From assembly GCA_038373885.1 (NCBI GenBank), contig JAWZYV010000080.1, forward strand, positions 62,001 through 126,000: 64,000 nt of DNA, written 5' to 3'. The notes below the pieces were generated by a model. It was given only the letters and a program-made list of their open reading frames with translations. It was not told the DNA's origin and ran no database searches. Below, in pieces: positions 3,501 to 57,954 of the stretch. Each line of letters begins with the position of its first letter. Within the stretch, counting starts at the first letter, position 1. The position numbers and the translations under genes were made by a program. This stretch comes from Cheiracanthium punctorium (lineage: Eukaryota; Arthropoda; Arachnida; Araneae; Cheiracanthiidae).

Positions 3501-6500
3501 AGGAAGGAAATTTAAAAATTACTTTAAAATGAATTTTGGATAACTGAGGCTCTAGTTCATGTATATAATAAAAATCTTGCTGATTTTTATTATATACATG
3601 AACAGGAACAGAAAAACAGCCTAATTTTAAAAATAAAATGAAGAGCAAAATTCTTTAAATACCTGAAGTAACAAGTGATACTTTAAAATCCTTTGCATGG
3701 GCACAGATAAAAGGTCCCTGAGTTTAAACTTCCCTCCATTAGCCTCCTGTTGACAACGCTAAATGACAAACATCCAATGTCATTAAAATCATATCAAAAT
3801 ATTGTAACAATAAATTACAAGAACATATGACACCAAAACAAGAGAGTATCTACCCAATACTTACATATTTAAAATATTGAGCAGTCACAGAATAGCATGA
3901 AAGCATAAGAAATGTTTTATCAGTAAAATGTGCAATAAAAAAATAATTTTTGTAATGCAATCATGAAAAATGGGGGGGGGGAGGGATAATCAGCTATTTA
4001 TAGCAATAATCAAAATTTTAGCTATCTGAAAAAAAAAAAAAAAATTATGTTATAAAAAATGGAAAATAAAATATTTGAAGTGAAGTGAAGTGAAGTGGGG
4101 TGGAGTGGAGTGTGCATATGCATGTGTGTGTAAAATTCCCAAAAAAAAGTTTATGTTTTTAGTTGATGAATAACACAGATTTTATTATGAAACTTAAATC
4201 CAATTTTTAAAAAATGTTAAAAATTCAATAGTACAAACAAAATTATAAAAAGAACAAATATGCTATTTTTAAAACCAATTCTCCCCCAAAAGAAGAAGAA
4301 AGGGGGGGAAAAACTCTTTTTAGTGATTTTCTAGAAATATTCAGTTTTACAGCACAGAGACAGACAACAGACCTATCTGACTTAACTGAAAATCAAAATT
4401 GTATAAAACTCCATTCATAAAGTTCACAAAATTTGAAAGATCAGAAATACATGTAAATCATACATATGCATATATATTTGCACAACATTGCATTTTTAAT
4501 CCACACAGAATATTTACAGTACAAGTGAATATTTTAAAATTTTCACCAAAAAATTATATATAAGCTACATTACTTAAAATCAATCAATTAAATTTGCAAT
4601 AAAAGTATAAAATAAAATGTATGAAATAAAATAAAACTGGTAAAGGCTATAAAATAGAGCAATGAAATCCTGGAGCATAAGACAATAAAATTGTGGTTTA
4701 TATTTTTTCAGAGGTGAAATTAAAATATTATCCTTTGACAAATATTTATTAAAATATTTGTCAAAGGGTTATACAAGGTATTCAGATATGGGAAGCAATG
4801 GGCCAAGCAATTAACAGTTATTAGGGTTACTACTGAAACATCAACAAAATGAAACTATGCACAAGGAGGCATTTCATAAAAATTCAAGGTTGATTTAAAA
4901 CAGTTATGTATTCATCAGAAACATTAAAATACATGAAAAATAAAACTATGAGTACAACCAATCAATACATATCTTTGCAAGAAAAAATTAATAAAAACTA
5001 GAATTTTTAAAAAATTGAAAAGTAGAATAGAGTCAGGAAAAAGCAAACAAAATATTTTTTGAGCTTAAATAATAAAAGTAGGATATAAATTATTTTAAAT
5101 TAGTTATAAAATAAGGGAGGGAGAATGCTTATAATATAAATACTTTTAAAATTTATTTCCTTACTGGACAATTTTTCTGTTCTTATCTAATTTCTCAAAA
5201 TTTTACATCAGCAGTTTCTGCTACCAGTTGTTGAAGCAACATCTAAATGCATTTACTTTTATATATACCATATATTTATTAAAAAATAATCTAAAAAACT
5301 TTTAACATTTGATTTTGAAAAATGTTTCTTTTGATGAAAAGTATATTTTTATTTTATGTTATTGAATTTTCTAATACCAAATTATAAAGCTGTTAAAATA
5401 TGCATACACCAAAAAAAAGCTTATAACACTGAAGTTTAATTTCAAAATTGCAACATATATTTTAAACTAATACAATTAAAAGAGCAAGAGAATGTCTTAC
5501 TAAAACAGCTTGATTGATGACTTCATTTTTATTACAAAGTTCTTCAATATGTTCTTGTGCAGCTGGCAAATTTGAACAGTATTCTCCATAAACAATGAAT
5601 TTGCTTTTCCATCGTAAAAAGCAATCACTGATTTTATAATGGTTAGATGTGCAAGCTTTGTAGAGTTCACTATGAAAACCAGTATGAATCTCAGCAAGAT
5701 CCTACATAAGAAATTCAATAAGAAAGCTTGAAGTACAAGTTAAGAAAGTAACTAACCAAGTAATACACATGGATGTAAAACATACCTTAATGTTCATAAA
5801 AATAATTTTTCTTGCTTCCGGCTTCAAAACTGTTTTTAAGGGTCTCATAAAGTGCTGTAAGACATATTTTTAATTAATGTATAGTAGGTACAGTAAAAAA
5901 GTACATTGTATCTAATATCAATGTGTATGCGTGTGTGTGTCAAATAGAAAATTTACAAACTGAAATAGTTCATAGAAAATCTCAAACCAGGCAACCTTTG
6001 GGTAAAATTCTTATCACCAGAAAGCAAAGTATGGAACAGATGTAACATCACCAATTGCTTTGGCTATGGTTAGGTGTCAAACACAGCAAACTGCAAATAA
6101 CTAGCAAGGTTTCTGTATTGCAGTTTACAAAAAAAGGTAAAATCTCCACAGTGGGTACAATAATCCTGTTAAAAAATTATTTGAGTACAAGAATAGACAT
6201 AAAAAGTTTTAAGGAGGGAGGAGGGGGGGTTACAGGTATAACAGAAAATCTTGCATTCCTGAAGTAGTGAGCTTCGCAAGTGTGTGTGTGTACATATATA
6301 TATGCAATTAAGGATTCATAATATAAAAATTTAAGTTATATGGGAAAAGATACATACCCTTATTATCATATTTAAAGCTTCGATATAATTTTTTTCTGTT
6401 TCAATAAGTTCTTTTATGCAGTAGTCTCGCTTTTCTATTGGCACTAATTGAGATACAGTACTCTAAGAAAAAAATAAAATAAATTATATAAATTTTAGTT

Positions 6501-9500
6501 CTCTTCTTTATTTTGAAATATTAAATTTTAATTATCCAAATGCCTAAAAAAATGAAACTGTATCATCCTTAAAGTAAAATGTTCAACAAAAATTTAGTTT
6601 TGCAGAAACTGCTTTCAATACTCATCAAATAAAAATTATTAAGGTATGGGAGTTTAATAAATAGCACTAGATCAACTATTCTGGAAATTTATTTATTTAT
6701 TTATTAAAAAAAATAATCAGGAAGTTTTCAAACAAAATAAATAATAACCCAAATACTTATACAATATAATTTAATGTCAAATAAAAAATAAATAAAAATT
6801 ATTTTATCAGATATTAGTAACCAATATAGGGTTAAGTTAAGATAGTGATACATTTTCCGAAAAACAAATAGTTAATTTTTAAATAAAAACTTTTCTAAAA
6901 TAGAACTTTGAACAATTTCTCATTGACAAAAGCCAATACTTCCACTAACATTCTATCATTTCATAACTTTTGATATGATAAAGGTTTGATAAAGTAAAAG
7001 GAAGGTATCATATGATAAGTTTTTCTTTCACAGATGCACATGTAAAAGTGTACAGCAGAATTTACAGATTAAAAACTTCAATGATTTAATCTGCTATACG
7101 GAGCACTCTTGTTGGTGTGTCTCACATTAAACATATCACTGTTAATCAGGTACTTAAATCAGGTACTTGTACTCATCAGGTAATTTTGTTTTTACAGTTG
7201 GCTCTCTGTTTACCGACACTCTACTTAACGAGGATTTCTATTTAAAAACAATGTTTCATAATGCTAATCTTTCCGATGTAAAAAATTTCTATTCAAAGAC
7301 AACAACGTTTCTGTTTACTGACGATTTTCTTTTACATGATAATTCTTTTCCCAACTTCTTATCTGCAGCAGGGGAACCTTCTGTGGAGGCACAAGTTTGG
7401 TTTCAATAACAGATCAGGACTATCCAGGGTCTTCTGTTCATTTTAGAGAAATCCTGGTTGTGAGTAATAGATCATTCCAATTTGAATACGTGTTGAGCGG
7501 ATCAAAATGATATCAAAGCAAAAGCACCTTACATTACACAAAAAAGGTGAAAATTATTGAAGAGTAGAAAAAAGTGTTGGAATGTCAATAGTCCAATTCG
7601 CAAGACTATTTCAGCTACCTGAGTTTATTCTCAAAGGTATTTGAACAAGCAAAGAAAAAATTCTTGAAGCAGCACAAAAATTTGGTTCAGGATCCAAATC
7701 TAAACGGCAGAAAATTCAATGTGGCTGATCAGAAGAGTTTAATAAGGCACTCCTGCAATGGTTCATGAGACAACAGCATCCAATATTCCAATTTCCAGCT
7801 CCACATTGACTGAGTTGATAAGATACTTAATATGGTTGATGGCTGAAGAGTAAAAGACCAGGTTTAGGCCTACCACATAGCTGTTGATCTAACGCTCTGG
7901 AGTTTTGGTTGATTTTCTCCAGATTCTTTGAGGGTAAGCGTTAGAAATCCCTTAAAATGTTCTCCAAACAAGGCAATCCGCTTTCCCAGTAGGCAGATGC
8001 CTCTCGTGTAGGCTTGCCATCATATAACTCCAATTTCCGGAGTGATATTTAAAGAAAATTCAATTGTTTTGGCAGAAAAGTTTGGAATGCAAAATTTTCA
8101 GGCTTCGTTTGGTTGGCTAGCAAAATTCAGAACATGGAAAATGACATGTTTAACATTTTAGAAAATCTGCAAAAAGATAACGAAAGCAAAGCTAAAAATA
8201 AAGCAATTAAACCAGTAGTAGCCCGTGTTAGCCCAGTGATTAAGACATTGGCCTGTTAACCAGAAGGTTGCAGTTTTGATGCCGATGTATCACTAAAGAT
8301 CACTGTATGCCTGTGGCACCACATGCACATTAAATCTGTGGTTCCGAAAGCCTACTCTGCAGTCGCTAGCAGTTTTCAAGTGATGCCAATATTCAGAAGT
8401 ACCCTACATTCTGATGAGAATACAAATTGTGGAGGGGAAACTATGTAGCTCTATATGACACACTCAGTGACAAGAGCGGACTTCAACTGGCAAACAAACA
8501 ACCAATCAACACATTTCGATTTTCTTAAAACCTAATTTTATTGTATTGCTTCTTTGTACTCTATGTTAAGGTAAGTTAAAATAAATAATTTTTTGAGAAT
8601 AAAATAATATAATGATAATAAAAATAACATCTTTAAACATACCAATATATTAAGAAATAGATTGACAATCCTAAGACTGTAAAGTGTGAAGAGAAATGTT
8701 ATGTTTTTACAAATTCTGTTTAAGGCCAATCTCTGTTTAAGGACGATTTTTCATGGTTCCTTGAAAGAGACCATCACAAGATTGAAAGTGGATGCTAATA
8801 TAACTATCTCAAAAAAGGGAGACAAATTCTGTTATGAAAAAAAATGATGAAGTATACCAGCATGTTTTATTTGAATTTAATAATTATCTATTGTATATTA
8901 ACATGGTGTCATAATTTCGCCTTTTTAAGTTACTTCATTAGAGGAAAACGTTATTTCTTTTGAAATAATTTCTAATCAAAGAGGAGGAATAGGTGGTGAA
9001 AAAATTCTTATTGTATTTTCGAGGGAAAGCTGAAGCTCGCCTAACAGTGATGCAGGGAAAAAAAATAAAAATTTGGGCATCATCTGTTTTGTAAAATCAT
9101 GCATTTTATTTTTTACAAAGCAATGCAAGAAACAAAAGAAATGATGAAATAATTTTTGCAGCATTATTTCTACAAGTGACGTGACTCAGATACTTGTTTC
9201 AGTTTAGAGTTACAGCTGCTCTCTCTTAGGGAATGCAATCCTACACTGTTTTCCGTTTTGCAGGATTGCATCTATTGTTGCATCCACTACTTTTTCCCCC
9301 CAAATAAAATACTTTCCATGGATAGAATTAGATACAGTAGATGTATGTCTTCCAATACCTACGGAATGCAATCTCACTCTGTTTTACATTTCTTGGGATT
9401 TCGGGTTTGAGATTTGTTGATCCTGCAGGATTAACATTTCATTCAAATAAAAATTAATTTGAACAGTAGGAAAAAGTAAGATTATAAGCACTATCAAGTT

Positions 9501-12500
9501 TAATACTTTGTCTTATTTGATAATTAATACAATACCTTACATAAATATGAAAATTATAGTCATGATATAGTCTTCCAGAGGGATCTCAGGATTGCATTCC
9601 CTACTCTCTCTCTACCTTTTCCTCCTCTGTGTTTGTAATTATTTTAAAAGCACAATTATGTGATGTGTTCATTACGAAACCATGATTCCATATCCATGGA
9701 CATTTAAAAGTAAATCATGAGGACAACAAAAACACTAGAAAAGAATGAGTGCTCTTTGAGAATACTGTTATGTTGATGTTATATTGCATGCATACAATAG
9801 AATATTATTATGTTATCAATTATTTTCCTCCAATAGCACCCAAAACCACGAGGCCTCACATTTAAGTTACATTAATGAAAAAAGAAAAATTACATGTAGC
9901 TCAATATTCTATGTTTTAAACTATTATTTACACAGCATAAAAATTAATGGCCTTTCAATATCCGTGTAAATTTAAAAGAGAGCTTTTGAAATTACAACTA
10001 AATGTTAGAAGTCTTCTTCATAGTTTGAAAGAAGGTTAAGCTACTTTCACAATCTAGCAATTTTTTTTCCTCCCCTCACAAGAAAAAGGTACATAATACT
10101 ACATGACGGACAAACCTTTGAGAACTTGTTTACTTATAAATGTAAAGCTGAAGTAAGAACCAAATTTTTAAACAGTTAATTAAAAATGAACAAAGAAAAT
10201 AGCTTCATTTCAATAACTAAATTTTTTTTTTTTTTTTTTTTTTTGCTTAATAGTACAATGTATGGCAACTACACAGATTACATACATAAAAAACACCATT
10301 TCACACAGATACCTTTGATGGGGTATAATGCACAATATCTTTGTATATATCATCGTCTCCTTCTTCATCCACAAAAGCATATGGTTGCTCCATATTTGCA
10401 GCATAATCAGTCTCACTGAGTGGTAAAAAAGCATGCACCACAGAAAAACCATGCATAAATTAATATTTACAGCAAACAATCATGCAAAATGTTTAATTAA
10501 AAGCACAAAGCAAGTACTACTACAAATTAAGTATTGCATAACAATATTTCATCACACTTATTTCAAAGCTTAGTTCATACTGATTGCATCAAAAGGCATT
10601 AACAAAGAATGCATAGCTCAAACTTAAAACAGTCAAAAGATTATAAAGCTTAAAACATAAATATATGCTTTTTTTTTCTTTTTTTCACATCAATCTTCAG
10701 TTATTACAGCAGAGCTGACAATCAATTATTTCTTGAATACAGCAAATTTGACTTGCTACAGACAGTAATTCATTAAATTTATTATTATAATTATATGATA
10801 TGGTCTGTCAGAATAACAGGAAAATGTATCGTTTTTAATTAAATTCATAAGAGAAAAAAGAGGTTAGCACAGTTTTTGGAAAAAGAAACATTTACAATGC
10901 ATTCTATTATAATTTAGCAAGTATTTTCAAAAAACATGTGCAATTCTAAGAGAATTTTGATATACCCTTAACTCTTTGAATATGGAAATGAGTGATAATG
11001 ATAATTTTGGTGGTTCTAAAGACCTCTCAGTGATTGTAAACATCGGAACAAAAAATGCATTACTGCACCTACAGTAAAGCATCTTCACACAACATTACGT
11101 TGTATGACATATTTGTAAATGCACTACAGCAGAACTATTTATAAAATATCTATTTGACATTTTAATACTTTATAGCATGACTTAAATTCAAACAAAAAAT
11201 GTCTCATTTGTGATTGCTTCGGAGCCATTTATACTCATAGTTTAGAGAGGGACTACTTAAACTTTATTCAAGATTGACTTGTAAACTAAAACTTTTAGTA
11301 AGCACTGCCACATATTGAATCACCCATGACTCTTGCTTAAAACAAAATTAATAATAAGCAGAACAAGTTTGCCACTTCAAAGCAACAATAGTTAGGCATT
11401 ATTCACGATGCTGATAACTACAGTTATATACATTCAGTTTTTCTATCATGCGAAGGCATGCTGTAGGTACCTCAGGAATCCTAAGCGTTACATAACAAAG
11501 GTCTTCATAAATATCCTCCTCTTTACTTCTGCGCGGAGTTATTGGAAATTCAAGGGACACCATAGTCTCTTCTTCATTATGGCTGTAAGGTTAATTTCCT
11601 TTAGACAAGAAATTCTTACTTTTGCGGGCATATTTTTCAAGCAATATAGAATATAAAATTAATAAAAACTTTGTACAGAAACACACATAAAATGGCACAT
11701 ATCCACAAGGTGATCAGTTCAGGTGGTACAAAAGGTCCACCCTTTTTCAGTTATAAAAATGTTCAACCATTTGCACGAGTAGAAAGGCTACAGCCACAAG
11801 TAAAAAAGCTTTCTAGCCTTTCATCTAGTGTGGATGGTTAAACTTTTTTACAACTGAAGAAGAGTGGACCTTTTGTGACACCCGAAATGATCATCTTGTG
11901 GATAAGTGCCGTTTTATGTGTGTTATCAGTTTTTATTAATTTACATTCTAACACCAGTCTTGTTGGGTGTTCTTATTAACATAGAAATATGCCATATTTT
12001 ATGTTGTAAAATTAATAAAGATAGCGATTTCTGACCCTTCTAACATACACATTTTCAGACTTTTTCAGTCATTTTCTTTTTTTTTAATTCTAGCCAAAAT
12101 GAAATAAAAACAAGAAGTATTGGTAAAATTAAAATATATAAATTTCACAGCAAACTAAAAAGCATCAATATATTTAAAAAGTGTACAGTACATTTAAGAC
12201 AACTATAATGAGTCATTTAAGACAACTTATCATTCAAAGGAATAAGTTATAATTACAGAATATTTCTTTAGAATTTTTTTTTTTTTTTTAAGAAAGACAG
12301 ATGGGAGGGGGGGGGGTTATGTTTAAGTATTTTCTAAATTAATCTAGACATTTTAAAACAAAATACTTAATGACAATAAAACTGAAAAAGAAAACACTTT
12401 AATTTAGTAATATGCTTCAAGGATCAAGCTTATTAAAACTGTAATTTCATTAAATATCAGGGGTTTTATCCTCTGAAGTTCACATTGGAACTGTTCTATC

Positions 12501-14391
12501 TGTTATATGTTATCTATCCTCATGATTTCTTATTTTTCTTCATTTTTATCTCATTTACGTTCACAAAAAGTTATTCAGTTTATAGGATGTTAACATACCA
12601 ACCAAATCTCAGCTTTATGTTTTTAATTAACTCAGTAAAAATTATGAACATAATAATTATACAGTAAAGAATAATGAAAAGCTCAGTATTTGTCTGGTAA
12701 AAAAAAAAAAGCATGTGCTCAGTGAAAACAATTAATATGCTTCCATTCCATCATTATATCTATTAAAATATGCATATAAATTTCATTTAGTAATGTGCTT
12801 CAGGAATTGAGCTTGTTAAAATTTTGATTTGACTGAAATATCTGGATTGTTTATCCTCCCATATTCCAATTGGAACTATTCTATCTATTAAATACTATTC
12901 ATCTTTTACTTGCATTCATAAGAAATTATTTAATTTTTAGCTATTTAAACAGAAACAAAATCTCAGCTATAAGTTTCTAATTAACACATTAAAATTTTAA
13001 AACATAGCAAATACATAGTAAATAATAATAGTGGAAAACATAAAATTTGTGTAATAAAACAGCATGTGCTCAGTGAAAACAATTAAAATGCTTTCATTCC
13101 ATTATTATACCTATTAAAACATGCATTATAAACACTTAAAACCATTTGTGCTAAAGGAAGAAAAAAGTTCTTCAAATATTCCAGGTGTCAAATAATTCAA
13201 CATACTAAGAAAAAAAATAGCAGAATATAAAATCATCAAACATTAAAAGGCTTACTTTGCAAGTTCTTCCAGGTTTCTATATATTTCATCATTATAGTAA
13301 TCATGATTTTTAGTAAAGGATGGAAAACCTCTGAAAGACAGGAAGGAAATAAACTGTTGTCAGAATTATATCACAGATGTAAAAGGAAATGGGAAAAAAA
13401 GGATTCAAGAGGTACATTTTAGCATGAAATTTGAATAAGCACAAAATATATCATTTTGTTATCACAACAATAAAACTGAGATCATTAAATTCAAAGCAAA
13501 CTGCAAGTTATTTTCACACAGATTTTTACCAATTGTTGAATACATTTTATGATGCATTATTTTGCACTTAATCTGCTTCATGCATATATAATCCTGTAAA
13601 AATTACCTATAATTACTTACACTATGTATGCCATACTTATTTTGCTGGAACAATTTAATATCAATAAAAAATAAAAAATAAAGATTTTTTTTAAATACTG
13701 GAGTATTTTAAGGTTTTAAAAATACACTTACACCCCTTTAAAGCAAACCAGAAAATTTACGTAGTTTCTTTGCTTTATAAATACTTTCTGATTTTGTACA
13801 TTAAAAGGGCTAAAAAAAAGTTTAAAAGAAACAAAAATAAGAAAACTTCACTGTGTGCCATATTTAGAGATTCTACTGATTTTAATCCTTTAACCTTAAG
13901 TTAAGAAAATAACTAAAATTCAGAACTTTATTTTTTTTTAATGAATTTTATAGGTGAGATAAAAAGTAGTAATTTTTCTATAGCTTACAAATATTTCGTA
14001 GAAGTAGGGAAGTATGAATTAATCCATTACCTCACATTCTCATTTTTCACTCTTGAAAATCAATGATACTAGTTTCAAAAACTTGTTAATCAATAAACTG
14101 GACAAAGTATGTCGAAGCATTCATGTTTATTCATACGTCACTTACAAAATAAATTATTTTACCTGTGCTTTTCAAAATCAAATAAATTCCTCTTTCACAA
14201 AACGATTTGTTGGTTAAAAATTTAACTTTTTAAGTTTCTTTGGATTGGAGATATTTTACAAAAAGTATGAGAATAAATTATTTACAGTAAAAATCAGTAT
14301 ATTTGCCTTCTGATACCGATAGTAAAAAATAATAATACAGATTAGTTGTACTCGTATATAAATAAAAATTACATAGACGTAGCGAGATCAA

Positions 14392-14427
<36 letters not shown>

Positions 14428-17400
14428 GGGGGGGGGGGCACATATTGTAATGAAGAATGGAAAAAAGAAAAGTTTATTTTGAATTTCGGAACAAATGTTG
14501 AAAATCAAGATTTTGAGACAAAGTTGGGGGGGGGGGGGGAGTCATGCCTCCCGTTAACACAACGCCTTTCAAAATATAATATGTTGTTGTAAAACACTTT
14601 TGTCTTTTTTAACTGTGCTACTGACACAAATAGGTTAAAAATAAACCAAAGCTGATTTATTTTGAATACTTTTTTACGCAAAAGATTATAGTTTAAAATG
14701 AACTTTCTTAAAAATTTTATAGTTTTTATAACAAGCACAAGCATTCATTCCATCAAAGTATTTGCTTTTATAAATTTATCGTTTAATTATTATTACTATT
14801 AGTAGTACGGAGAAGTTTCTGCGAAAACTCATCACATTACTAGCGTTTAGCATGAAAATAAGTGAATTGCTTCCAATATACATAATAAATAAAGCATAAT
14901 AATAAAACAATTAACTTAAGTGGCATACCTAGTCAAGGTCTCCTCCCCGCGGACAACCGCCCACTTCAACATTACAAAATACTATTCTCCATGCACGTTT
15001 ATTCTCTTCAGAAAAAACCCTTCCGTAAACATCAACAATTATTAAAGGGAACGAACTCAGCGATGAGCGAGAGAAAAAATACCCGGGAAATTCTTGGCGC
15101 GGCGCGGGGCCGAGGGGGTCCCATCAACATCGCGTTGGTTCCAAGAAATAAACATTTCCATGGCAACGTGTTTCGCCTGCCATAGAAAAGAGACTATGCA
15201 TAACTATATACAGAGAACATTGAAATTCGCACACCTACAACAAGCCGAATTCTTTGTAATCCACCAAATGCTCTGAAGATAAACAATGCGAAATCCGACG
15301 CCTGTTTAATACAGAATTCAAGGTTTTCAAAGCCAAATAATTTTCATTTTAAATTTATCTCAAGTAAAACTTTAATACATTCTCTTCCAATGAATTGAAA
15401 ATTCATCTTTTCTAAAGTAAACATTTAAAAAAAATCAGCACTTTATAATGGGAAATAATTTTTCAACAACCAAAAAATAAAATATGTATTCAAAATCATA
15501 TGCAATTTGTGCAAAATTTAGGATAATGCTTGATCAAAAATTAACAGTAGAAAGGGTAAAAGTCCATTCCCATAAAAATTCTGGTTTAAGAGAAATTAAA
15601 ATCAAACTTAAAGGAAGATCAACAACTTCAATGATACAAATAATCTTTCATATGGATAGTTAAAGCATTTCAAACTATTGGATAATTTTATAGATAAAAT
15701 TCAATTTAAGTTATAATCAAAAATACGTAAAATTCTACAATCCACATATTTTTAGGTTGCAAGGCTTGCGAGTTTCAGAGCGTCTGCTTACAAATAAACT
15801 TGCCATACGAACAAATGGTAAAGTATCACGCTAAATCCGCGTGAAACAAGGTTAGTAAATAATTGTGAACACGGGTTTTCGAATTATGCATGATCAACGA
15901 TAAACCAGTTTTATCTACAAAATTAGTCATAAGTAAACAGCAGAGAAGCAACACATATGTACATAAAAGAAAACAGATTTCTTCAGTATACTCACATTTA
16001 CTATGGTAGGAAGTAAAACTGATTGGTTAGCATAACAAATGTTAAACTCCTAAATAAATAACAGTACACCCATTGATGGCTGTTATCTTCTTTCACACGA
16101 ATAATACTATCACAGTTCGTGAATGTCATCTGGTTTTGCTTGAGTTTGTTTACAAAATTCTAAACGAGATCAATATTTGGCTTAAAATAATAAGGGATGT
16201 AACTTAAAATAATAAGGGATATAAATACACTTCATCTTTTAATTATAATTTTCATTAAACAAATTAATTTTATTACTAAAACATCAGGAACAAAATTTCA
16301 ATTGAAGAAAATAGGAATGAAATTTCAATTTACAAGTTGCACAAGTTAATACTTTTAGAACTCAAAAACTACGAAAAATTCATAATTTTTTTTAAAATGT
16401 CGTAGACTGTCAAAGAGCACAAGCTTCAGCTGATCGAAAATATTTATAGTATTAAATCAAAAACTTGTAGTTTTTAGATGATTTCCTATTCATATTAAAA
16501 CGCTTTAATTAAAGAAGAATAAAACTACATCATTCAAAAAAACTTTTAACATAAATGTCCAGTGTTGGACAAAAAACAATTGGCAATTAATTAATCGTTA
16601 ATCTAAACATTTGATTAATCAATCTAACCAAAAACTAATCAACTCTTAATTGAGAAATTTACAGTTAATAATTCATCGACTGTTAGTCGCAAAATTTTTA
16701 CAATGTAGGTTTACTCAAGAGTCTGCAATTTTTACAATTGATTAGCAGCAATCAATTGTTCGTGGTAACTTTCGAAACAATTAATCAATTATTAATCATA
16801 AAAATTAATTTTGTTACAGCAGTTAAAGTTTACTAAATGTATATACCGACACGATCTTTTTTTTTTTTTTTTTAATAGAGGGATCTCTTTTTTGACATTT
16901 TCCAATAAAGATGTGGTTATAAATTCAATTTATCTGTCTGTTCGTCTGTTCATTCACACAGACTAAACATGCAACAGACAGACCGAATGACAGGAATATC
17001 AGGACATGAATGACAGGACCGAATGAATATATATTATTTCAGCTTTTTTGGAAAATGTTAAAAAGGGGCCCCTCGAAAAATTCCTCGGCCCCTATTTCAC
17101 TGAAAGTTTTCCAGTCGAACTAGTTTTTTAATCGTTAATTGTTCAATCAAACTAAGTGTTTGAACAAGGATTAATTCATATTTAACTGCAAAAAGAAAAC
17201 GATTGACAAGTGATTAATATTTAATTGTAAAATTCGCAATTAACAACTAATCAATTGCTAATTCCCTACTTTTAGATTAACGAATACACCGGCTTTCTAT
17301 TTAACGACTTTCAAAGAACCGTGAAAAATCGTCCTTAAATAGAGATCGCTCAGAATTTATAAAAAAAAATAACATTTCCCTTTTCACTTTACAGGCTAAG

Positions 17401-20400
17401 GACTTTCAATAAATTTCTTAGTATATTGGCGTGTTTAAAAATGTTATCTTTAATATCATTACATTGTTTTATTCACAAAAAACTATTTTAAGTTACATTT
17501 TTTTTTTTTTAAATACAAACTTTAGAATAAAATTAGATTTTGCTTCATTTTTCGCCCTGTTTTATTTCCCCCTTTTTCGTTGTTCTCTTTTCTTCCAGAT
17601 TTTCTAAAATGTTAAATGTGTCAGAAATGACATGTGTGGAAGATAGTGGCAGCATCTCATTTATCGTGACTTCAATTGCATCTTATTCGTCTGATACTGT
17701 GTTTTCGTTCAATATATCTTCATAAATTTGTTCTATATTTCTGTGATATGTTGTTAAAACAGATTCATCACAACTGTTGAATTGAAATTATCATCTTTTT
17801 ACAACTTGTACCTCCATAGAATGCTCCCCAACTGCAGATAAGAAATTGGGAAAAAAAAAAAAATTTAAAAATATTCATCATACTAAACAAGTAATGTTTA
17901 AAAAAATTATGTCAATTCCTACTTAGGTCAACAAAGAAAAATTTTATTTTCGTTACTTTTTATTAATGATTTAATTGATAAAAAATGGGGATAATTAATT
18001 GGTCGATTATTAGTTAATTAATTAATGCAGGGTCGTTTGTGAAGCGAAGGTCGATACCGTTAATCTAGTTTGTTTGTTTAGTTTATTGTTCTCATTCATT
18101 TTTAATCCCACGTAACAGGATCTAAAATTAATTTAATATAATTAATGAATTAATATTTGAAAAAAACTGTATTAACATCAAGAGTCATCCACTACAAGTT
18201 TTAAAAAAATCTGATGTGTCCAACACATGACTTCCTTGCACGTCCATTAGATCAAAAATATTTTTGACGCACTTCCTCTAAATTTATTTGTTTGAAAGAG
18301 ATAAAATATCAATAATAGTAAGGTTTAGCGATTTCTAGCCAAATATTTCGATATCGCCAAGCTGAGTTCAATTTGAAAGATTTCCTTCTGACACTTTATT
18401 TGGCGATATTTCACCAAACGCCGACAAACTTGAGATAGTCAGCGAGATTTTGGGGATAGCCAAAGTAGTCATTGACCACAGACTTTCAATGAATTGAATG
18501 CATCTATACACCTCAATGTATTCAAAGTCATTTGGCTCACCATGTAAATAAATTCTCAGTCGATTGCTGTCAAAAAAGATATTGAAAACAGTTAGATATT
18601 ACAATAGTTCTAAATATAAAGTTAAAAAATCCACGGGTTAAAGTTTTAGAGTTATACAAAATAGGAAATAATTTTTGGCGCCAAATTTGGCGATATTTCG
18701 GCGAAACTCGTCAATGTCGACGACATTTGGCGAGATTTTAAACATGAACCAAACAATGAAAGATTATCGCCAAATTTGGCGATATTTCGCCAAAACTCGC
18801 CAAGAACGATGACTAATGGCGATACTTTGGGCATGGACCAAATGACTGACTATCGCCAAATTTGGCGACATTTCGCCAAAACTCGCCAAGGTCGAGGACA
18901 GACGGCGAGATTTTGGGCATTTACCAAACAATGACTGTCTACAGTTATATTATATTGAAGATGTCCATAGACATTAAGGTACTGAAATTCTTTTCGGTGG
19001 TCCTGTAAGTAAACTCTCCAGTAGATTGGAACCAAAAATCGAGATGCACAACTAGATGTTACAACATTCTTATATATGAAATTTCATAATAGTTTTTGAG
19101 ATTTGAGAGTTAAATATGCACACACATACACCAAAAGTCGCCAAGCTTGGCGACTTTTGGCATAGTTCTTGAGGGAGGCACGTGACCGTGGTCGGACCAT
19201 TACCTAACTTATGTGGTAGGACGGTATTGTGCTTGAAATGGATGAATGCCCCTAAAATTGCTATTGACCGTAATGTATTGGAAATCTTTTGAGTGTTCCT
19301 GTAGCAGAACTATAAATGATAAAGACATTTTTTTTTAATGGAGAAATTCATTTTCTAACTCTTTACAGCATATATCACTTCTGAGTCGTTTGAAATAGCC
19401 CAATACCTCTAAAAAACGCTTTGATGAATTTCGGCCCATAGAGCGTAATGTATTTCGAATCTTTTGGGCGGTCCTGTAGATAAACTATTCAGTCGAATGG
19501 AACCGAAAGGGGAGGTGCACAACTAGATGTTACAACAATCCTAAATATAAAGTTTCAACATTCAACGCCTAACAGTTTTTGAGATATGCGAGTTTAATGA
19601 ATTTCGGCCCATTGAGTGTAATGTATTTCGAATGTTTTGAGCAGTCCTGTAGATAAACTATCCAGTCGAATGGAACCAAAAGGGGAGGTGCACAACTAGA
19701 TGTTACAACTATCCAAAATATGAAGTTTCGACATTCTACGCCTAATAGCTTTTGAGTTAGGCGAGTTTAATGAATTTCGGCCCATAGAGCGTAATGTATT
19801 TCGAATCTTTTGGGCGGTCCTGTACATAAACTATCCATTCGATTGCCACCAAAAGGGGAGGTGCACAACTAGATCATAGAACAATCCTAAATATCAAATC
19901 TCAACATTCTACGACCAATAGTTTTTGAGATATGCGAGTTACATACATACGTACGTACGTACAGACGGCATGGAAAAACTGGCCACAGTAGACTCGCCAC
20001 TGGTCAAAATGAGTTGCAGACGCGTTAATATGATCGTGCATGCTAGCCTACGATGAGATGCATCGAAAAAATTTTTTGAATTAAATTTAGAGGTAGTCAA
20101 AATCGGTTTTTATGTCGAAATTTGGCCCCCAAAATTTTTCGGGATCACAATACTTCCTTATACTACGTACAAGGAAGTAAAAAGTATTTGAACTTCAGTG
20201 GGTGAAGAAAAAGTATTTTATTAAAGATTGAAAATTTGTACAAGATATCTTTATATATAAAAATCTTCTGTTCGTGAGTATGTGACTGAACTCCTCCTAA
20301 ACTTGACGGATTTTTATAAAATGTTGTGTGCGTGATTATACTGATTCGAGAATGGTTTAGATTCACAATTGGATCCGGTAGGCAGAGCTAGAATTGCGTT

Positions 20401-38100: not shown

Positions 38101-41100
38101 TTCCTCCCTTTCGGATTGAGCTTGTTTATTTTATAATAGATATATATTTAGTTAAAAACGGTCTTTTAAAGAAATTAAAAACAACAACAACAACTGCCCT
38201 TTAAAAAAAAAAATGTTTGTTTGTTGAAAAACTTCCGGATTTGGGGTCCCTTTAAACATTTTGCAAAAGCAATCATTTGTCATTGACCAAGAGTTACTGA
38301 CAATTAGAAGGCTTCAGGACAAAATTTCTGAAGAAAAATTAAAATCTCTTAAACAAATTACAATCACTGCAATGTGTGAAAAAATGAAAAATAAATAAAA
38401 ATTTAGAGAGAATTTATTCTTTTAATTTTTTATTAGTAATTGTATTTAATATTAAAAATAGTGTTTTAGTTCAGCAGTATAAATATTTTCTTTCATCTGT
38501 CCTTTAGTAAATTCTCTAAATTTAATTGTATTATTTATTGTATTTATATTGACAATTAACTGTGTTTTTATTCAATAGCATATGCATTTTCTTTCATCAT
38601 TTCCTATTTGTTTACAGTAAATTGACTATAATTTAAAGGGAAATTCTAAATGTAAAAATGTAACAAAAAAAATGACCTATAATCCGCAAAATATTTAAAA
38701 AAATTTTACCTACTAATGAAATGTGATATTTAGTATATATTTACTTTTTAAAATATGATAACTGCATTAAAAGTTTCTAAATAAATTCAATCCATTGTAA
38801 AAAGCATAAATGTTTCACAATATTTAGCTAAAAAGAATTTTAATGGATATTCTCTCAGATCTGTTGCTACAGAATTTAATTCTATCCTGAAGGAAATTTT
38901 CTCAAGACAATGAAATTCAGTTCATATGTGTTTTTCAAGGCTCTTTTTTTTTTTTTTTTTTTTATGATAATAAAATTAATTATCTGTGTTACTTTTAAAA
39001 TTTAGACATGTTAAGTACTTTTACATCCATTTGGATTTTCATTTTAGTAAAAAAATATCCCCGAGAAAAAAAAAATCTTGCAGTTTATAATTAAATAATT
39101 TATATCTTCTTACTTGATGCCAGATGCTTGTGCTTTTTCACTTTTGGAAAGTATCGATAATGTGTGCAAGACCTTAAAAAAAAAAAGAAATTATTTATTA
39201 GAATCACACTTCATAAAACATTCATTTACATAAATGAAAATATGTATGTATGTGTGCATGTACAGGGTGTCCGTAAAAAGACTGGCGGTTTTCAAAAATT
39301 CATAACAGGAAAATGGTTAAAGAAATAATTCTTGCGTCTGAGCATATATTTTTCCTCCCAGATTTTTCAGGTTTTTAGTTTTAAAAAAATTCCAACCGAT
39401 GGTGCTGCAGACTGTGAACCTGCAAAACAAAGGAAAACAATTGATAATCAATGCACAATTGCTTGAAATCTTTTAATGAATGAAAATCACAGTACAATAT
39501 TTTCGAAATGTGTACCATCAGCAGCAATCAAATGTCGTAATCGGAGGATGAAATTAGCAGACATTTTCTGTAAAGTGGTCAATGAAACAGCTGCACATTC
39601 GTCCAACTTCTTCAAGTGTTTGGGGATTTTCCCGGTAAACTGCATCTTTCAAGTGACCCCAAAGGAAGAAATTGCACGAATTCAAGTCTGGTGAATGTGA
39701 ATATGGTGGCCAGTCAATTCCCTTGCCTGTGAAGCATGAGTAATTTAAAGCAATTACCCAGTTATCAAAATACTCCTCAAAGAAATGGAAAACATTGTCA
39801 GTCCGGTGAGGACTTGCACAAACCAGGATGTCGCGGATGAATCGACCGCAGTGTTTTCAATGACCACAAACTCGCACAATATTTCAATATATCGTTTGGA
39901 AGTCACTGTATCACGGAGAAAAAAGGTCCATTTACACCTCTACTGGAAACAGCTGCCCATACAGTCACTTTTGGAGAATAGAGTGATTTTGGAACACACA
40001 CAAGAGGGTTCTCAGTTCCCCAAATTTGCCAATTTTGCTTATTGACGAAGCCATCGAGATGGAAATGTGCTTCATCTGAAACACAGGTACAGTTCACATC
40101 AATATTGCCATGATCAATCATATCCAGCAAATCATTCGCAAACTGCTTTCTTTTCTGTATGGATGAGGTCCGAAGTGCTTTCTGTGTTTGAATTTTGTAC
40201 AGAAGCAAGTTCAAGCACTTCCACATTATTGTATGCACCGATGTTTTGCCCACATGACATACAGCTGCAGATCTCCAGATTGATTTTCTAGGAGAGCGGG
40301 CAATTATTTCCTCAACGATCTGTCCATTTGCTTCTGTAATAACCGACGGGTGTCGTCCTACACTGTTGATTTTCTTTTCCGCTACACCACCAGCTCAATG
40401 AAATTTGTTGTACAATGCTTTGATTGTATTCGGCTGCAGACCTTTAGTGACTTGGACTGAAAGCTTTTTCTTGTTGCTGTCACACTCTGCCCTAATCGGT
40501 GAAATTCCAAAACTAGGAAAAATCTGTTCTTCCAACGAATATGTCATTTTTAACAGTTTCTGATTCTGCTAATCAGCTCTCTACTGATCATCCACTCATC
40601 ACAAACACTCTTTTTAAAGTGAAAACATCAATGCCTTCTGCAGCTGCGTCTTTTGATGATTTGCATAAATCAAACTGGAACAAACTGTAAAAGAGACTTG
40701 CAGTGCCATCTGTCGGAAATTTTTGTAACTAAAAACCTGAAAATCTGGGAGGAAAAATTTATGTTCAGACACAAGAATTTTCTGCGAGAATTATATCTTT
40801 AACAGTTTAACTCTTATGAATTTTTGAAAACTGTCAGTCTTTTTAGGGACATCTGGTATATTCAACATTTCCTCTAAACTACTTAACTGTTTAAACAGAA
40901 ATTTAGGACTGATATGCAGGCAAACAAAGAAAAACATAGGCTACTTTAAGAATCTACAAGTCTACTGATTTTTTTTTAATTTTTCAACACTAAAAAAATA
41001 ATTTTGATAGTTTAAAAAAAATTAATATGAGATTTCTTTTACTGTCAATGTTTTGACATCAAAGTTTGAATTGCATCAGATTCATAAGCTCTGTTGCAAA

Positions 41101-44100
41101 AATCATACCAAGATCAAAATCATCTTTCAAATTTGCGATTCTAAATAACTTATAATCTCCAAATTTCAGTAGCGAATGCCAAAATATTCTGCATCTGTAA
41201 GAAATCAAATTTTTAAAACAACATTTTAATGGGGGGTTAAGAATAGTCATTTTCCTTGAACTTCAATAGCAAACACAAAAACATCCATTCTGTAGGGGAT
41301 CAAATACTGAATGTTTTTTATTTTCCTTTTGTTGAACACCTTTTGTCACTTTTTGAACATGTACCATGTAAGGAAAGTATTGTAATCATGAAAAAATTCA
41401 ACTGAGATTTTGCTGTATTTATACATTTTGAGGTCTGAATTCATTCATGTTATTTTTACGAGATGTGTGTGTGTGCATGTGAGTGAACACGATAGCTCCA
41501 AAACGGGACATTCAATTGAGATTAAATTGGGTATATATGTTATAAACCACCATCGTAAGACCGGTATTGATTTTGATGTGTATAGGACTTACAGTTTTTC
41601 TACAGGGCTACGAAAAAGATTTCTTTTACATTATGGCATACGGGGAGAAATTTTTAAAAGTGTGCTAGCATTTATTTAAATGCTTGGTAACAGAAAGTAC
41701 CCATTAGCAGATAATGAAGCTCATGAAGGAAACAGTAGAATAGTGAGCAACCATTTGAGAAAGCCCGCAGCTGCTGTAATTAAGAAAAATTTCTGCAGGA
41801 ATTTGTTCAACATGTTATGGCTGTATGCAGTTATTTTGATAAGCATTTCGTAAATGGAACTGTCACGAACTATGCCTTTTAGTACATTTTGCAATGTAAG
41901 TACTTGGCATTGCCAGCTTCGGTGTTTTTGATGGCACATAAAAGTAGTAGCAGTCCTAAGCTAAATAAATTTAATGACAAATACTATCAAAATAAAGAAG
42001 CATGATTTTTGTTGAAACAGTGAACTATTCACTAAATCAGTGGTTCCTGACCAGGCATTCGCAGGGTACAAGAGAAAAACAGGCAAAGAGGAAGTCATCA
42101 TGCATGTTTAAAGAACTCATTGATTCATATTTTTCATCCAAAACATATTTACTTTTGCTTAAAGTTTATTCAAACTTTACCGATAATATTATTTTGTAGA
42201 AAAGGGGCGACATCATAAGTTATCCTTTGTTTGGGGGGGAGTGCATAATGTTAAAAGGTTGGGAACCACTGCATTAAATCATTTCAAAACTAGTACATGT
42301 AATTTTCTCACCTTCCCAAAATCTGTGCAGTCAAACAGCATTGAAGGCTCAAACAAATCTGAAGGTGATATATCAAACACATTCTGGCAGGTCTGAAGAA
42401 AGGTACGAATATTTTTCAAACAAAGAAACTGAAAAGACAAAAAGCAGTATTATTAAGTTTAATACTAAATATATCTACATTTGTGTAAAATAAATCAATT
42501 GAAACAATATGCAGATATTTAAATATTAGAAAATCTATCAATCACATGTTGTTAATATAAATTTTGTGTACAATCCCTTAGCTCTTTCAACCGACCAGAA
42601 TTGAATTTTTTTTAATAAAACTTGCAATTATTTGAATAAACAAACTAAAATACATCACTTATGCAGGGTTGTTGTGATTTTGACCAAACCCGAAAAAACC
42701 CGGGTGGGTTTTTTCAAAAAAGTCCACTTGAAAAAACCCAACTGGGTTTTTTCAAAATTTCAACTTTAATTACATAGATAATACATCGCTTAATATCAGT
42801 ATACCACTTGTAAAGTTTATAAACAGCTCATTATCTCCCCCCACACCACCACTACCACAGGAAAAAGAAAAATTAGACTTCACATAGGCATAAAAACTTT
42901 CTAGAGAAAACTTTTATGGATATCTGTATTAAAATGAATAAGGATTTTTTAACCATAAAAAATCCTTAGTTTAAAAACTTCTAATTAATATTAGTATATC
43001 AAATTCAATTCGTATATAATATTAGTATAATCAAAATAATAATCAAAATCAATTAGTATATAATATTAGTATATAATTAGTATATCACTGTTAAAATTAC
43101 TAATAGTCAATTTATCTAAGAGGCTTGTTATTGTTATTGATTTATACGTTTTTCCATGTATGATTAATATAATTGTCATCAGTTATTACTATTAATTAAA
43201 CCATTTTTTATTTATGATTGATTTTTGTAATCAATTAATTGCTTTAAGTTGTACTTAGAATTAAGCAATTTTTTTTTTCAAATATTCTGAAACCCCATCC
43301 TTGCCTCTGAAAAAAACCCTGATAAAACCTAAAAAACCCAGATAAATTCCGATAAACCCTGAAAAAAACCCAGTGGGTTGGCTTTTTTTTTTTTTAAACC
43401 TAGGTTATTTAACAACCCTGCTACCACAGCCAATGATTATATATCAATTATCTAAACAGTTACCCAACTGCAAGATCCACCCATAACCTCGATATCCTTT
43501 GTTTTGAGCAGAGGTAGGGACAGATCTTCTAATGGTCTCATGTTTGTCTTCACACACTAGATGACTTGATAGCTCAACTGCATTACATAAAAAGGTGCTT
43601 ATTTTGAAAAGGGTACTTACGTATTATCCTGGCAGTCATTCCCGACAAACTATTTTTTCGTCAAATATGCTGGCAAACAGTTGCCAATCGCATTCCAAAC
43701 TGTCAATAATTTTATGTGTCCGGCATTTATCTTGGCGAAGAATCGCTCATCTTGGTGGACCGCTAGGATAATACGTAAGTACCTTGAAAAGCAGTATGGG
43801 ACTATATTCCGTATACGGTGCCTTGTTTACATGTCAATGGTTTGTTTACAAATCATTGGCGAACAATCTGACGCGAGAGTGAGCGATGCACCGCCAACTG
43901 CCAGTGGTAGTTGTGACTGGCAACCATAAAGAATACGTGTTTCGTCAGGTTTGGGAATTTGAAATTGTTTGCGTTATTGATGGAAGGGAATGAAATGTGT
44001 TATGTTAATATAAGAAAAGAATTTGTGGGTGTTTGTTAGAAATATAGTACGTTATAAGCCGGTGGGTGTTGGGGACATTTCTGAGCGGTTATTTACCAAA

Positions 44101-47826: not shown

Positions 47827-50800
47827 GACTGGGGAGTAGCGCGCTACTTGTAGCGAAACTACAGTAGCCGCTACTTTTTTTGTAGTTTGTAGTGTAGCGC
47901 GCTACTTTTTTTAAAGAGTAGTGTAGCGTGTAGCGCGCTACAAAAAAACAGTAGTTTGTAGCGAATTTTGGAAGCTACTTTTGCCGTGTCATCATTTCCG
48001 GCGATTGATCCCGTGGTGCAATTTCTCTCTCTTCTCACTCCAAGCATAACTGAAACTGATGCTTGAAAGACACCCAATCTCCCCCCCCCCCCCTCATGCA
48101 GGGGACACACGCACACGAGGGGGGGGAGGGGGTTTGCTTTGCCTGAAGCGGAAGCCTGACATTGTGCATCTTTTTTCTTTTTATCGTTCTCAGTATTATT
48201 TGTAGAATCACCAATCTGCCATAAAGAGGACAAAAAAGGAAGGAAAGAGATGTCCAAAGTTGAACAGAGGTTATTTTGATGGGGCCTCGAGAGTCTCATT
48301 ATCACACGGGCGTGTGGGCCCGTGAGCCCCTGTAAAATAAAGGCCTCGCAAATCTCTCCATTTATTGTATATTAAATTTATATATGCTGCAATAATAATT
48401 TTTATTAAGCTAAATTTCCTTTATCTATATCATAATTGTGTAACAATAAAAAGGCTTCGAGACTTATTTTCTGTTCTTCTTTCTAACACAATGATAATGG
48501 TTTCTGAGACTAGATCAATAAAATAGAAATTAAAGGCGTTATTGAAAATTTATGGCCATATGTACTTATCACAAAATATCCATTAGTTAGCATTTTTTTA
48601 AATATTATGATGAAGAAAAGAAAATTTTCTGGCAGGTGGAACTCAGCGCACACATACGCTAATAATACAAATGGATTAAAAAAATATTAAAATCAATTTT
48701 AAATGCATAGTCTTGTTCTAATGAGTATAAATACATGGGTAATTTTTAATTTAATTTTAGAATTATTTTGAAATGTTTCATTTTTATTCTGGGAAAATAG
48801 AAAACAATCACAAATAAGTTAAAATGTCTGTAATAGTCTAGGGGCCCAAAACAACCTTTTTTTTTGCCCCGGGGCCCCTTCTATGTCTGATCAGGGTCTG
48901 TATATTTTTGACTGCTATTGCGTGTTTGCAACATAAATCAACATAAAAATGAGTATTTTTTGCTTTCGAAAAGGAATTTTACATATCTGTAAATTGTATG
49001 CTTTTGTAACATCATTAATTTTCTTTGATCTTTTTTTTTTATTGCACCCATAAATACAGTGTAGTGTCTGTCCACTTGCCAGGATGATTGCCAATCATTC
49101 AGTGTCCAGTATTCCGTGAACTTCCTTTTAGGCGATATCCTTTCAAATCTGACATGATATATAGTCAGTCCCCGCAATTAGCGACCCCCCCCCATCCTCT
49201 CACTCACCATCTACGGAAAACTACGAAGCCTGAGAAAAACTTACGGTTTTCTCACAGGAATTTTCTTGAAAGCATCGAGACCGCTTCTGGAAGAGTCACC
49301 GACATTTTTAATTTTCTCTTTGCCTCCTCCTTATGATCGATGCATTGAACAACAATTTTATTTATGCTTAGTTTTACTAAGTTTATTTATATTAAGGTTT
49401 GGTCATTTTTCGACGTTACAGTGCACTTTTTTGAGTTTGGGCACTCTTTATTATCCTTGTGTCGTGTTCAACTTCCACAAGAGTAATGACAGTTCTGCAG
49501 TATTGTAGCTTTTCAAACATTAATTAATCACGTGATTATGTTCTACAACTAGGAATGTTTTTTGTCTCAAAGAAGTGTAAAAACTGATTAGTACATTTTT
49601 CGTGGAACCTGAAACTGAAAAAAAAGAAAGTAAATATGTAGAAATTGTACACATTTTTTTTTTTTTTTTTTTTTTTTGGACGAGTTGATAACCTTATCTT
49701 TTTTGAGTTTGTTGAAAAGGGACAAAAGGTATAAGCATATGCATCCAAGATATTATTTCAGGGGCTAAAAATATTGCTGACCTCGGTTACAGTGTTCTTC
49801 GTTTGTAGTGACAGTTTTCAGATCCGGTCCTAAGGTAGAGCGAACGGTGCGACCGCACCGGGCGCCATCTCTACCAAGGCTGTTCAGAATAATATAGCAC
49901 TGTGGATGTCGGAAATGGTTTCATTTACCTGTTAATAATTGTTTAATAATAAATCTTTTAGTCAATGTACAGTAGTAATCAATCATGTTAATAGTGAATT
50001 TTAGTGAACTTTCTGTGAAAAAATAAATTATTAACAGGTACTCGAGGACGACTTATCAAACCCTACATTGTTACGTGATTCATAACCGTCTTATTTACCT
50101 TTACCACTCTTTAACTTTTTGCCAATGAGTTTCAGAGCACCATGCATATTTGACAGTCCGTATATTATTGAAGTTGAAAGCCTCATTTTAACCCCTGAAA
50201 GCTTTTATAGCTAAATGTGTGGCGTAGCTAGGTGCAAGAGCTGATCTAGGGTACGTGGAGCCTCCCTGCAAACGTAAAGAAGCCCCGTGTTATGCTCCAG
50301 ATTAAGTTTTCCTTAGTTTTTTAGTTCGAATATGGCGCTCCGATGCCTTGCTTACCGTGTCGGGCCGTCCCTGGCTACGGGGGAGCAAGGAAGCTCAACT
50401 GTACCCGGGCGCAGCATCGGCCAAGGGGCGCTAAATGGTATATGAAAGCTACCTAGTTGCATTTTTAAAAAATAGGAGGGGGCGCAAAATCTTCAGTTGT
50501 CAGGTGGAAACGAGATTTAGTCATTTGCTGTGGGACAGAGAAACTGTTCTCTCAGCTTGTTTCCATCCCAGATTCAAACTATTCTGGATTGAGGAGGAGA
50601 GGAAGACCGAAGCCAAAAAAATGGATGGAGGAATACCTCCAGAATATGTTTCCGACAACTTCAGATATCAGTATCGAGGATCATGACTGGATGATGAGGC
50701 CCATGGATGATGACTTTTCTGGTTATTTTAATTTCTCTTTCGCATGCACTCGAAATAGTTACGAGGAAGAACTTACAAGGTTCTTGTCAGAGCCAATCAA

Positions 50801-52317
50801 ACCCGTATCTTCGCTTTCGGCGTACACGTATATGAAAGAAGCCTTCAAAAAAACTAACACTCGCGTGCCGTCCAGTGCATCTGTACAAAGATTGTTTTCG
50901 ATTGCATCGGACGTATTTTCTCCTCGACGATCATGTTTGGCGGATAACAATTTTGAGATCCAGCTCTTGTTAAAATTTAATAAACATGTTTTTGAATAAA
51001 TTTATGTGGTTTTTATTTTATACTAGAGGCATGGCAGTCTTCCATGAATATGTTGAAATTCTGCTTTCTTTCGTTAAAATTTGTCTATTATATTTAAATT
51101 ATTAGGTTTTTTGTGTACTAATTTTCAGAATTTAATACGAAAATATGAGAATTTCTATTAATAATTAATAGTTTGTAAAATCCTTAGACTTATCTCTCTC
51201 TTAGCCTTAAAATAACAATATAATTCTATAAAATTCTTTTATACCTAACACAAAGAAAAAGTTGTGTTGATGATAATAACTTTTAAAATTTCTTTAACAT
51301 ATATAGAGGATTTTTTAATGCAATGTTTTAAATAGATATATCATGAATTTAATGAGTAATTGTTTTCATTATTTTATAATATGCATATCATATGTGATGT
51401 TTTCAATTAAAACAATTATACAATATTACATGGTTCACACGGGTCATTCGTCATAAATCACTAATTTGGTAAGTCATGAAAAAAAGGCCTTTATACTCAT
51501 TAATTTTGATTTGTGCTCAAGAAACTAGAATGTTTGTACAACATGAAAGGGGTCTCAAAACGGGCCTTTTTTTCCCGTTCAGACATCCATTTTATTATAT
51601 TTTTAAAAACTTTTTTAGTTCTCATGATTTTTCTCGTGCTTTCAGAGCTCACTTTCCCAATTTATTTTTATCATAGAGGTATTAAAACTTAATTAGTTTC
51701 AGCAATACTTCAATAATTAGCAGTAGTTGCCAGTAGCGTATATATAGGCTAGGCTTCCATTTCGGGGGGAGGGGGACGATTCGGTATTTTAAACTTTATT
51801 GTTCTAAAGTTAAAAGAAATGTTTCAAAATAGCTCCTTTTTAATAATTGCTTTACATTTTCGGAGGGGGCCCGCCTCCCCCTGCTCAAATACTCGCCTGG
51901 TAGTTGTTTATTAGAGCAATAGTTTTTTCTAATTAAAAGCGAAAAGGTGCCCGGGGTCTTCCGTGCGTCCACCAAATCTGCGGCGCTCAACGCTACAAGG
52001 AAACCACCTTTCTTTCTTTGGACGCGAGAGATACCCGCTGAGGTCATTAGTCACGCTGGACGCGAGTAGAAAACCAAGGCTTTAGATATCGATAGTTTTC
52101 TCTAATTAGGATATAAATACCTTAAATATGAATGTAATGCAAATTGAATCTGTTAGCAAAATTTGTCTCCTAAAAGTAGCGAAGTAGCGACTACATTTCA
52201 AAAGTAGTGTAGCTAACTACATTTGTCAAAAAGTAGTTGTAGTTGTAGTTAACTACATTTTTCGAAAAGTAGCGGTAGTTGTAGCGCGCTACAAAAAAAA
52301 AGTAGTTTTTCCCACCA

Positions 52318-57386: not shown

Positions 57387-57599
57387 ATGTGAAATTTTAA
57401 CATTCTGCAACTAATAGTTTTTGAGATAAGAGAGTTAAATACATACACACGTACATCAAAAGTCACCAACTTCGCTACTTTTGAAGGTGGCACGTGACCA
57501 TTGTCGGACCTTCACCTAACTGTATGGTAGGATCAGTGGCGTATGCAGACTTCCTTCAAGGGGGGGGTATAGACATAACTTTGATGTTAAAATGCGTGA

Positions 57600-57745: not shown

Positions 57746-57954
57746 ATTGATGACCCGGAATACGAACACGCATTCTCCTTCTCACCTACAGCAACAGATG
57801 GCGCCAGCACCGCCCTCTTCCATCTCGGCTCTTTCAGAGTCCGCAACGAGCGGCAGCGAACTCACAAAGTCCACAACGAGTGGCAGCGGCGTTCCATAAC
57901 GCTTGGAACATCGTTCGTCAGCCTCCTACTGACTCTCTAGGGGGGGGGGGAGTA

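Follow-up and report, generated by a model that had tools for sequence, protein, structure and literature searches.

Two alternative exons, mutually exclusive by reading frame, encode the acidic tyrosine segment of Vav in the spider Cheiracanthium punctorium

The window, the 64-kb stretch of DNA analysed here, carries on its minus strand the N-terminal half of a Vav gene, with exons 1-4, A, B and 6-10. Vav is a textbook GEF gated by tyrosine phosphorylation. All exons given below lie on the minus strand, and their coordinates were set by exact splice-site matching. Exon 1 (45659-45868) contains the start codon and encodes part of the CH domain, as indicated by matches of its CH part to Vav1 and Vav3 structures and by Pfam CH. 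Exon 2 (42312-42428, CH domain), exon 3 (39114-39172, end of CH), exon 4 (13256-13330), exon 7 (5786-5854, DH), exon 9 (3663-3758, DH) and exon 10 (918-989, DH) were placed by tblastn with the Vav of Argiope. Exon 4 encodes NDEIYRNL, the tyrosine of which we take to be the counterpart of Vav1 Y142, and leaves the split codon AA; exon 10 ends at the donor GTAAGA or at GTGGTA, 3 bases earlier. The start of the DH/RhoGEF domain is encoded by exon 6 (6358-6462, Pfam RhoGEF), and exon 8 (5501-5701, DH) was recognised by Vav1 DH structures. The Pfam scores are 67.3 bits for CH and 85.8 bits for RhoGEF, both above the gathering cut-off, and both spliced forms (4+A and 4+B) match; the RhoGEF match is partial (profile positions 1-114 of 180) because the window ends. 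Exon 1 and exons 6+8 matched Vav structures in the structure comparison, from which the rows ranking under the Vav entries were left out as generic DH-PH matches. Successive Vav exons continue on the same contig past the low-coordinate end of the window, reaching residue 748 of the 878 of Argiope Vav (tblastn, 40 kb). This query (P0001) lists Pfam PH, C1, SH3 and SH2 domains, the last SH3 lying past the 40 kb.

The N-terminal part of Vav in the window is 82% identical to that of Argiope (protein search) and groups among spiders in a 37-row tree, with support of 98/93 for a 10-row set that contains it. A search of the spider's own genome (2.5 Gb) with exon A plus exons 6-8 gave four matches at E <= 0.001, all at the Vav locus, and no second copy of this combination was found at that threshold. 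Elsewhere in the window, the open frames at 50469-50996 (plus strand) and 39906-40394 (minus strand) look like transposon remnants; Pfam returned nothing at 1e-3 for these two or for the frame at 57485-57937. An inverted repeat pair (8583-8767 and 17308-17488, 82% identical) has one copy within the intron between exons B and 6.

Exon A, of 112 nt (11471-11582), and exon B, of 103 nt (10313-10415), were recognised by their splice sites, by an acidic tyrosine motif and by the A-type and B-type segments of relatives. The acceptor of exon A ends in CTTACAG and its donor starts with GTACCT; for exon B these are CACTCAG and GTATCT. Both lengths are 1 modulo 3. The split codon AA from exon 4 becomes AAC via A and AAT via B, asparagine in either case, and each exon is entered in a phase-2 codon and left in phase 0 into exon 6. 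The two exons are adjacent, share their entry and exit phases and are interchangeable in frame. When A and B are joined the translation reads ...LRIPE and stops, TGA being the first codon of B, and exon 4 spliced to exon 6 with neither of them reads KVLYLN, six codons followed by a stop. A full-protein mRNA therefore carries only A or only B, since both double inclusion and double skipping shift the frame; exclusivity is established at the reading-frame level only. At that level the proposal of an earlier note, that mutually exclusive exons encode the regulatory tyrosine region of Vav, is supported; its exon lengths, its shared split codon and its phase 0 exit proved correct to the base, and spliced translation reproduced the two stops that it had described for double inclusion and double skipping. 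Other ends for exon A were considered (11492-11582, 11432-11582 and others) and set aside, as the A segments of most relatives continue through CYVT[LF], which is the 112-nt form.

The motif [DE]{3}[IVL]Y[EQK][DE][LIV] occurs exactly twice in the six-frame translation of the 64-kb window, once in A and once in B, and not once in 200 sequences of 64 kb simulated with a first-order Markov model; by this motif there are no further acidic exons in the six frames of the window. The acidic [ED]DIY[EK]D motif that the earlier note had seen in each exon, with differing surroundings, is thus borne out. The alignment of the A and B proteins scores 38, a value equalled by 3 of 2000 shuffles, in one short alignment whose score comes mostly from the shared acidic tyrosine motif. 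The pair is probably an old tandem duplication.

The tyrosines of the spider protein were assigned as Y142-, Y160- and Y174-like by their presumed correspondence to Vav1. Exon B has the canonical layout, with a Y160-like and a Y174-like tyrosine, so that 4+B carries tyrosines like Y142, Y160 and Y174. Exon A keeps the inhibitory helix EEDIYEDL with its Y174-like tyrosine and has another tyrosine five residues on (CYVTL); it has no Y160-like tyrosine, and neither does 4+A. The same difference is seen in other species: among the matches listed, a tyrosine at positions -22 to -4 is missing in 24 of 26 A segments and present in 40 of 41 others, the A-type rows P0050 and P0054 being the exceptions with an upstream tyrosine. 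In these sequences A and B are not equivalent, A being nearly always devoid of the Y160-like tyrosine. AlphaFold models of both forms align to the Y174-autoinhibited DH domain (1f5x), over 206 and 207 of 208 residues, and in both models the inhibitory helix with the Y174-like tyrosine is predicted to dock on DH; model confidence in the helix region is low to middling (block means of 67 in B and of 43 and 71 in A). Whole-model superposition on autoinhibited Vav1 (3ky9) gave an rmsd of 22.1 for A and 7.2 for B, and in view of the poor fit of A the autoinhibited placement of CH in that form lacks model support.

Relatives were compared in 123 rows, namely the best 120 of 2174 matches of a protein search and 3 rows from two short-region searches; no row of this sample is named as vertebrate, and nematodes and flies fall outside it. 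The database is clustered at 90% identity, and most of the listed rows show one type only. Short queries gave few matches (three proteins including the query for residues 170-212 of P0050, seven for the window's exon A) because they reach close relatives only. Rows were taken as arthropod or not by their names, with P0004, P0018, P0021, P0024, P0036, P0042 and P0046 taken as arthropod and P0060, P0061, P0074 and P0085 as mollusc from reading the sequence; P0084, P0103, P0118 and P0119 are unassigned. Two kinds of segment between the CH and DH domains were found in arthropod rows. With a strict pattern, A-type segments are present in 26 of 63 arthropod rows, in none of 56 non-arthropod rows and in none of the 4 unassigned ones, among the best 120 of 2174 matches plus 3. 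A looser pattern gives 28 segments by adding P0114 and P0120, which under the strict pattern belong to the 41 others. The count omits the exon-4 type (Y[KE]DLQSA) and one artefact in P0097; P0027 has no segment, and Nymphon P0012, apparently a cut A followed by B, was counted as B. Chelicerates with the A type include Stegodyphus, Parasteatoda, Oedothorax, Nephila, Trichonephila clavipes, a horseshoe crab, a pseudoscorpion, two tick-like rows, mites and a sea spider; elsewhere it occurs in a barnacle, an ostracod, a springtail, a locust, a cricket, cockroaches, thrips, a scale insect, a firefly and stick insects. The B type is found in other spiders, ticks, a horseshoe crab, myriapods and many insects, and also in the A-bearing sea spider and barnacle. 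The choice in Vav that had been noted from the window alone is thereby supported, and it is widened, as the A type is spread over the arthropods of this sample.

The predominance of single-type rows in a database clustered at 90% identity would suit an explanation in which each species carries one type and makes no choice, as would the two types of Tachypleus (P0008 and P0009), which may be separate genes because they lie on contigs of different length. This explanation is hardly credible, however, given that the window itself has both exons and that both types occur in single species elsewhere. The Pycnogonum isoforms P0011 and P0010 are identical but for the A/B swap; the Amphibalanus isoforms P0065 and P0047 show no difference up to the segment and agree fully again over 238 residues counted from the start of DH, beyond which differences return. 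Each of these pairs comes from contigs of one stated size, as database isoform entries, and is consistent with the use of a single exon of the two per mature transcript. Five predictions contain A and then B in one protein (T. clavipes P0089, Lamprigera P0097, P0099 and P0112 from two species of Timema, and Blattella P0122) with filler placed between them, the outcome to be expected from genes in which A precedes B and the two are not directly joinable. Furthermore, A-type and B-type rows are intermingled in the Vav tree and do not track it. In Blattella germanica P0122, transposase-like sequence precedes exon A and also separates A from B, apparently because the gene model has taken in mobile elements. 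The earlier note had looked to related genomes for both exons in the same order; the order is the same in all five predictions that show both, and there are isoforms that swap them.

Exon A is, in these comparisons, about as conserved as the DH exon 8 in 8 of the 9 chelicerate rows compared. Identities to the window for exon A and exon 8, respectively, are 92 and 79% in T. clavipes, 92 and 81% in Nephila, 87 and 84% in Stegodyphus, 84 and 72% in Oedothorax, 76 and 82% in Parasteatoda, 79 and 78% in the pseudoscorpion, 74 and 73% in the horseshoe crab and 71 and 70% in a tick-like row; Pycnogonum is the outlier, with 39% for exon A against 72% for exon 8. Absence of exon A from close relatives had been named as a finding that would count against the pair, and the exon is present in T. 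clavipes and Nephila at 92% identity. Exon B is 54-66% identical in four B-bearing spider rows (Uloborus, T. clavipes, T. clavata and Argiope). Chelicerate profiles of 13 A and 16 B segments, with the window excluded, tell the window's exons A and B apart by 64 and 44 bits. On the A profile, 13 of 15 A-type segments of insects and crustaceans score 19.4-33.9 bits and two hymenopteran segments about 2 bits, a test that gauges agreement of the remaining segment and is not an independent classification, as the A types were chosen by their CYVT signature. The 23 B-type segments of insects, crustaceans and myriapods score 8.1-20.0 bits on the same profile, so that the two ranges touch. Of the two profiles, A gives the slightly better score to 19 of these 23 non-chelicerate B-type segments; among non-arthropod segments it gives the better score to 3 of 55. 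Judged from these scores, the A exons are well supported as descendants of a single ancestor. For B, one common ancestor across arthropods is less supported, because the B profile fails to generalise outside chelicerates.

The conservation of exon A bears on the possibility that it serves mainly as a regulated poison exon, A-B joining leading to TGA and NMD, so that the pair would tune the level of Vav and not its type. The position of the stop, at the first codon of B, would fit such a function, and the A-B intron, at 1055 nt, rules out steric exclusion by a short intron and leaves the joining sterically unbarred. A pure poison exon, however, needs no conserved protein, and that of exon A is 71-92% identical in the same eight chelicerate rows (39% in Pycnogonum); A-form proteins open into DH are recorded in many arthropods among the matches listed. 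A mainly poison role is thus improbable.

The donors of the pair are weak. Their scores on a donor weight matrix are 4.2 bits for A and 5.4 for B, with exon 8 weaker still (3.8) and the other six at 7.4-10.7; 27 of 351 GT dinucleotides in the interval from exon 4 to exon 6 outscore the donor of A. The acceptor of exon A is pyrimidine-poor (0.35, the lowest of eight; exon 7 has 0.47). The weak donor and the poor acceptor could mean that exon A has dropped out of splicing in this species and survives as a relic; this is very improbable for an exon with an open frame, intact sites, the right phase and 92% identity to the exon A of two orb-weavers. The intron between exons 4 and A also holds a near-palindromic foldback (11647-11950, 76% self-inverted over about 304 nt), the exon A-side end of which lies 64 bases before the exon A acceptor, and a tandem direct duplication (12398-13132, copies 70% identical over 390 aligned columns).

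Three TGCATG, candidate Rbfox sites, are located at 10481-10486, 10450-10455 and 10432-10437 on the minus strand (a cluster spanning 10432-10486), at -71, -40 and -22 of the exon B acceptor, and two GCATG, likewise candidate sites, follow the exon A donor at +10 and +20 (11457-11461 and 11447-11451). In the gene sense the 64 kb contain 20 TGCATG, and the trio upstream of B is the only place on the strand with three in 100 nt; when the window was simulated 200 times with a second-order model, one sequence had such a three-site cluster anywhere, a test that was chosen after the sequence had been read. In the 150-nt flanks of eleven exons (22 flanks), GCATG is confined to the flank before B, the flank after A and one distant site after exon 4. 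TGCATG is not enriched window-wide (31 on both strands, 31.3 expected). UGCAUG is the site of Rbfox/FOX-1 in flies, worms and vertebrates, with an effect set by its place upstream or downstream (PMC8742874, PMC3585155), and in worm egl-15 and mammalian FGFR2 Fox binds UGCAUG upstream of the second exclusive exon, represses that exon and favours the first (PMC3585155, PMC2880598). By analogy, the same layout at Vav predicts that Rbfox would shift Vav from B to A.

Exclusion might alternatively depend, in place of Rbfox and the frame, on RNA structures that compete with each other or on an incompatibility of U2 and U12 splice sites. Both are known mechanisms of mutually exclusive exons. At this locus, however, duplex energies between the introns do not stand out from those of shuffled sequences (three comparisons with 20 shuffles apiece), so that long-range RNA pairing was set aside. 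The acceptors look U2-type, the B donor GTATCTGT has only partial resemblance to a U12 donor, and no clear U12 donor is present among the donors examined. Such a mechanism is unlikely, though less so than the readings of exon A as a poison exon or a relic.

The reading that we prefer, at a probability of roughly 85%, is that A and B are mutually exclusive exons giving alternative acidic segments, with a presumed choice by the cell and presumed control by Rbfox. A and B would encode alternative autoinhibitory acidic segments, placed after the Y142-like exon 4 and ahead of the DH domain, and each full-protein mRNA would take one of them. Cells may thus choose between a Vav opened by the usual tyrosine relay (B) and one whose phosphotyrosines differ in number and identity (A), and the threshold, the kinase preference or the SH2 partners may differ between A-Vav and B-Vav. 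Rbfox/FOX-1 at the UGCAUG cluster upstream of B would repress B and favour A, and may at least partly set the choice.

A wider version of this reading is put forward only tentatively, at clearly less than even odds: the pair may be an arthropod-wide switch that goes back at least to the divergence between chelicerates and the crustaceans and insects, by which Rbfox-expressing cells (muscle or neurons) would swap tyrosines and have two Rac activators. To the same tentative degree, the middle tyrosine would be exchanged for one beyond the helix, and phosphorylation thresholds and partners would differ. If arthropods do swap the segment with the middle tyrosine, nature has provided an experiment, conserved over a long time, on what Y160 does. 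The contribution of the middle tyrosine would become testable in animals by isoform-specific removal, and any single-isoform construct of arthropod Vav would cover only part of the output of the gene. A parallel bivalve swap at the same site would make the switch a repeated or an older protostome solution.

Mutually exclusive exons are a known kind; as far as searched, there is no description of such a pair in Vav, of a version that has lost the middle tyrosine or of the Fox-like layout. No title or abstract start among the open-licence papers listed describes alternative acidic exons in Vav, in keeping with the statement of the earlier note that no description of such a choice was known; supplements on exclusive exons in Drosophila may list vav. 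A 2019 review of Vav evolution places Y142, Y160 and Y174 already in choanozoans and names later losses for other sites only (PMC6562523); 'splic', 'isoform' and 'exon' do not occur in that text, nor does 'vav' in that of PMC7954323. A passage on Drosophila proteomics reports spectra that might stem from an unannotated vav variant (PMC2614494), which is not tied to exon A because the passage gives no sequence. Isoforms in databases already hold both forms, so that the novelty lies in recognising what they are.

The system can be compared with three others. Like the acidic region of vertebrate Vav1, that of the spider lies in the order CH-acidic-DH, the Y174-like helix is placed on DH in the models, and B has tyrosines like Y160 and Y174; unlike it, the spider gene has two alternative exons, of which A is without a Y160-like tyrosine and has an extra tyrosine five residues after the Y174-like one. 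With exons 5A/5B of egl-15 and exons 8/9 of FGFR2, the spider gene shares a tandem alternative pair with UGCAUG just upstream of the second exon (PMC3585155, PMC2880598). Those are other genes, and spider Vav differs in having three UGCAUG at that place, plus two GCAUG after the first exon, all of them candidate sites. Within the protein sample, the Vav of bivalves resembles that of the spider in a swap of 33 for 35-36 residues at the same place between CH and DH (Magallana and Crassostrea, P0101/P0105 and P0110/P0095). Ruditapes P0032 resembles the rarer oyster version and has no tyrosine upstream of the core one. The bivalve swap differs from that of arthropods in that the arthropod A signature is missing from either version, each of which has retained an upstream tyrosine.
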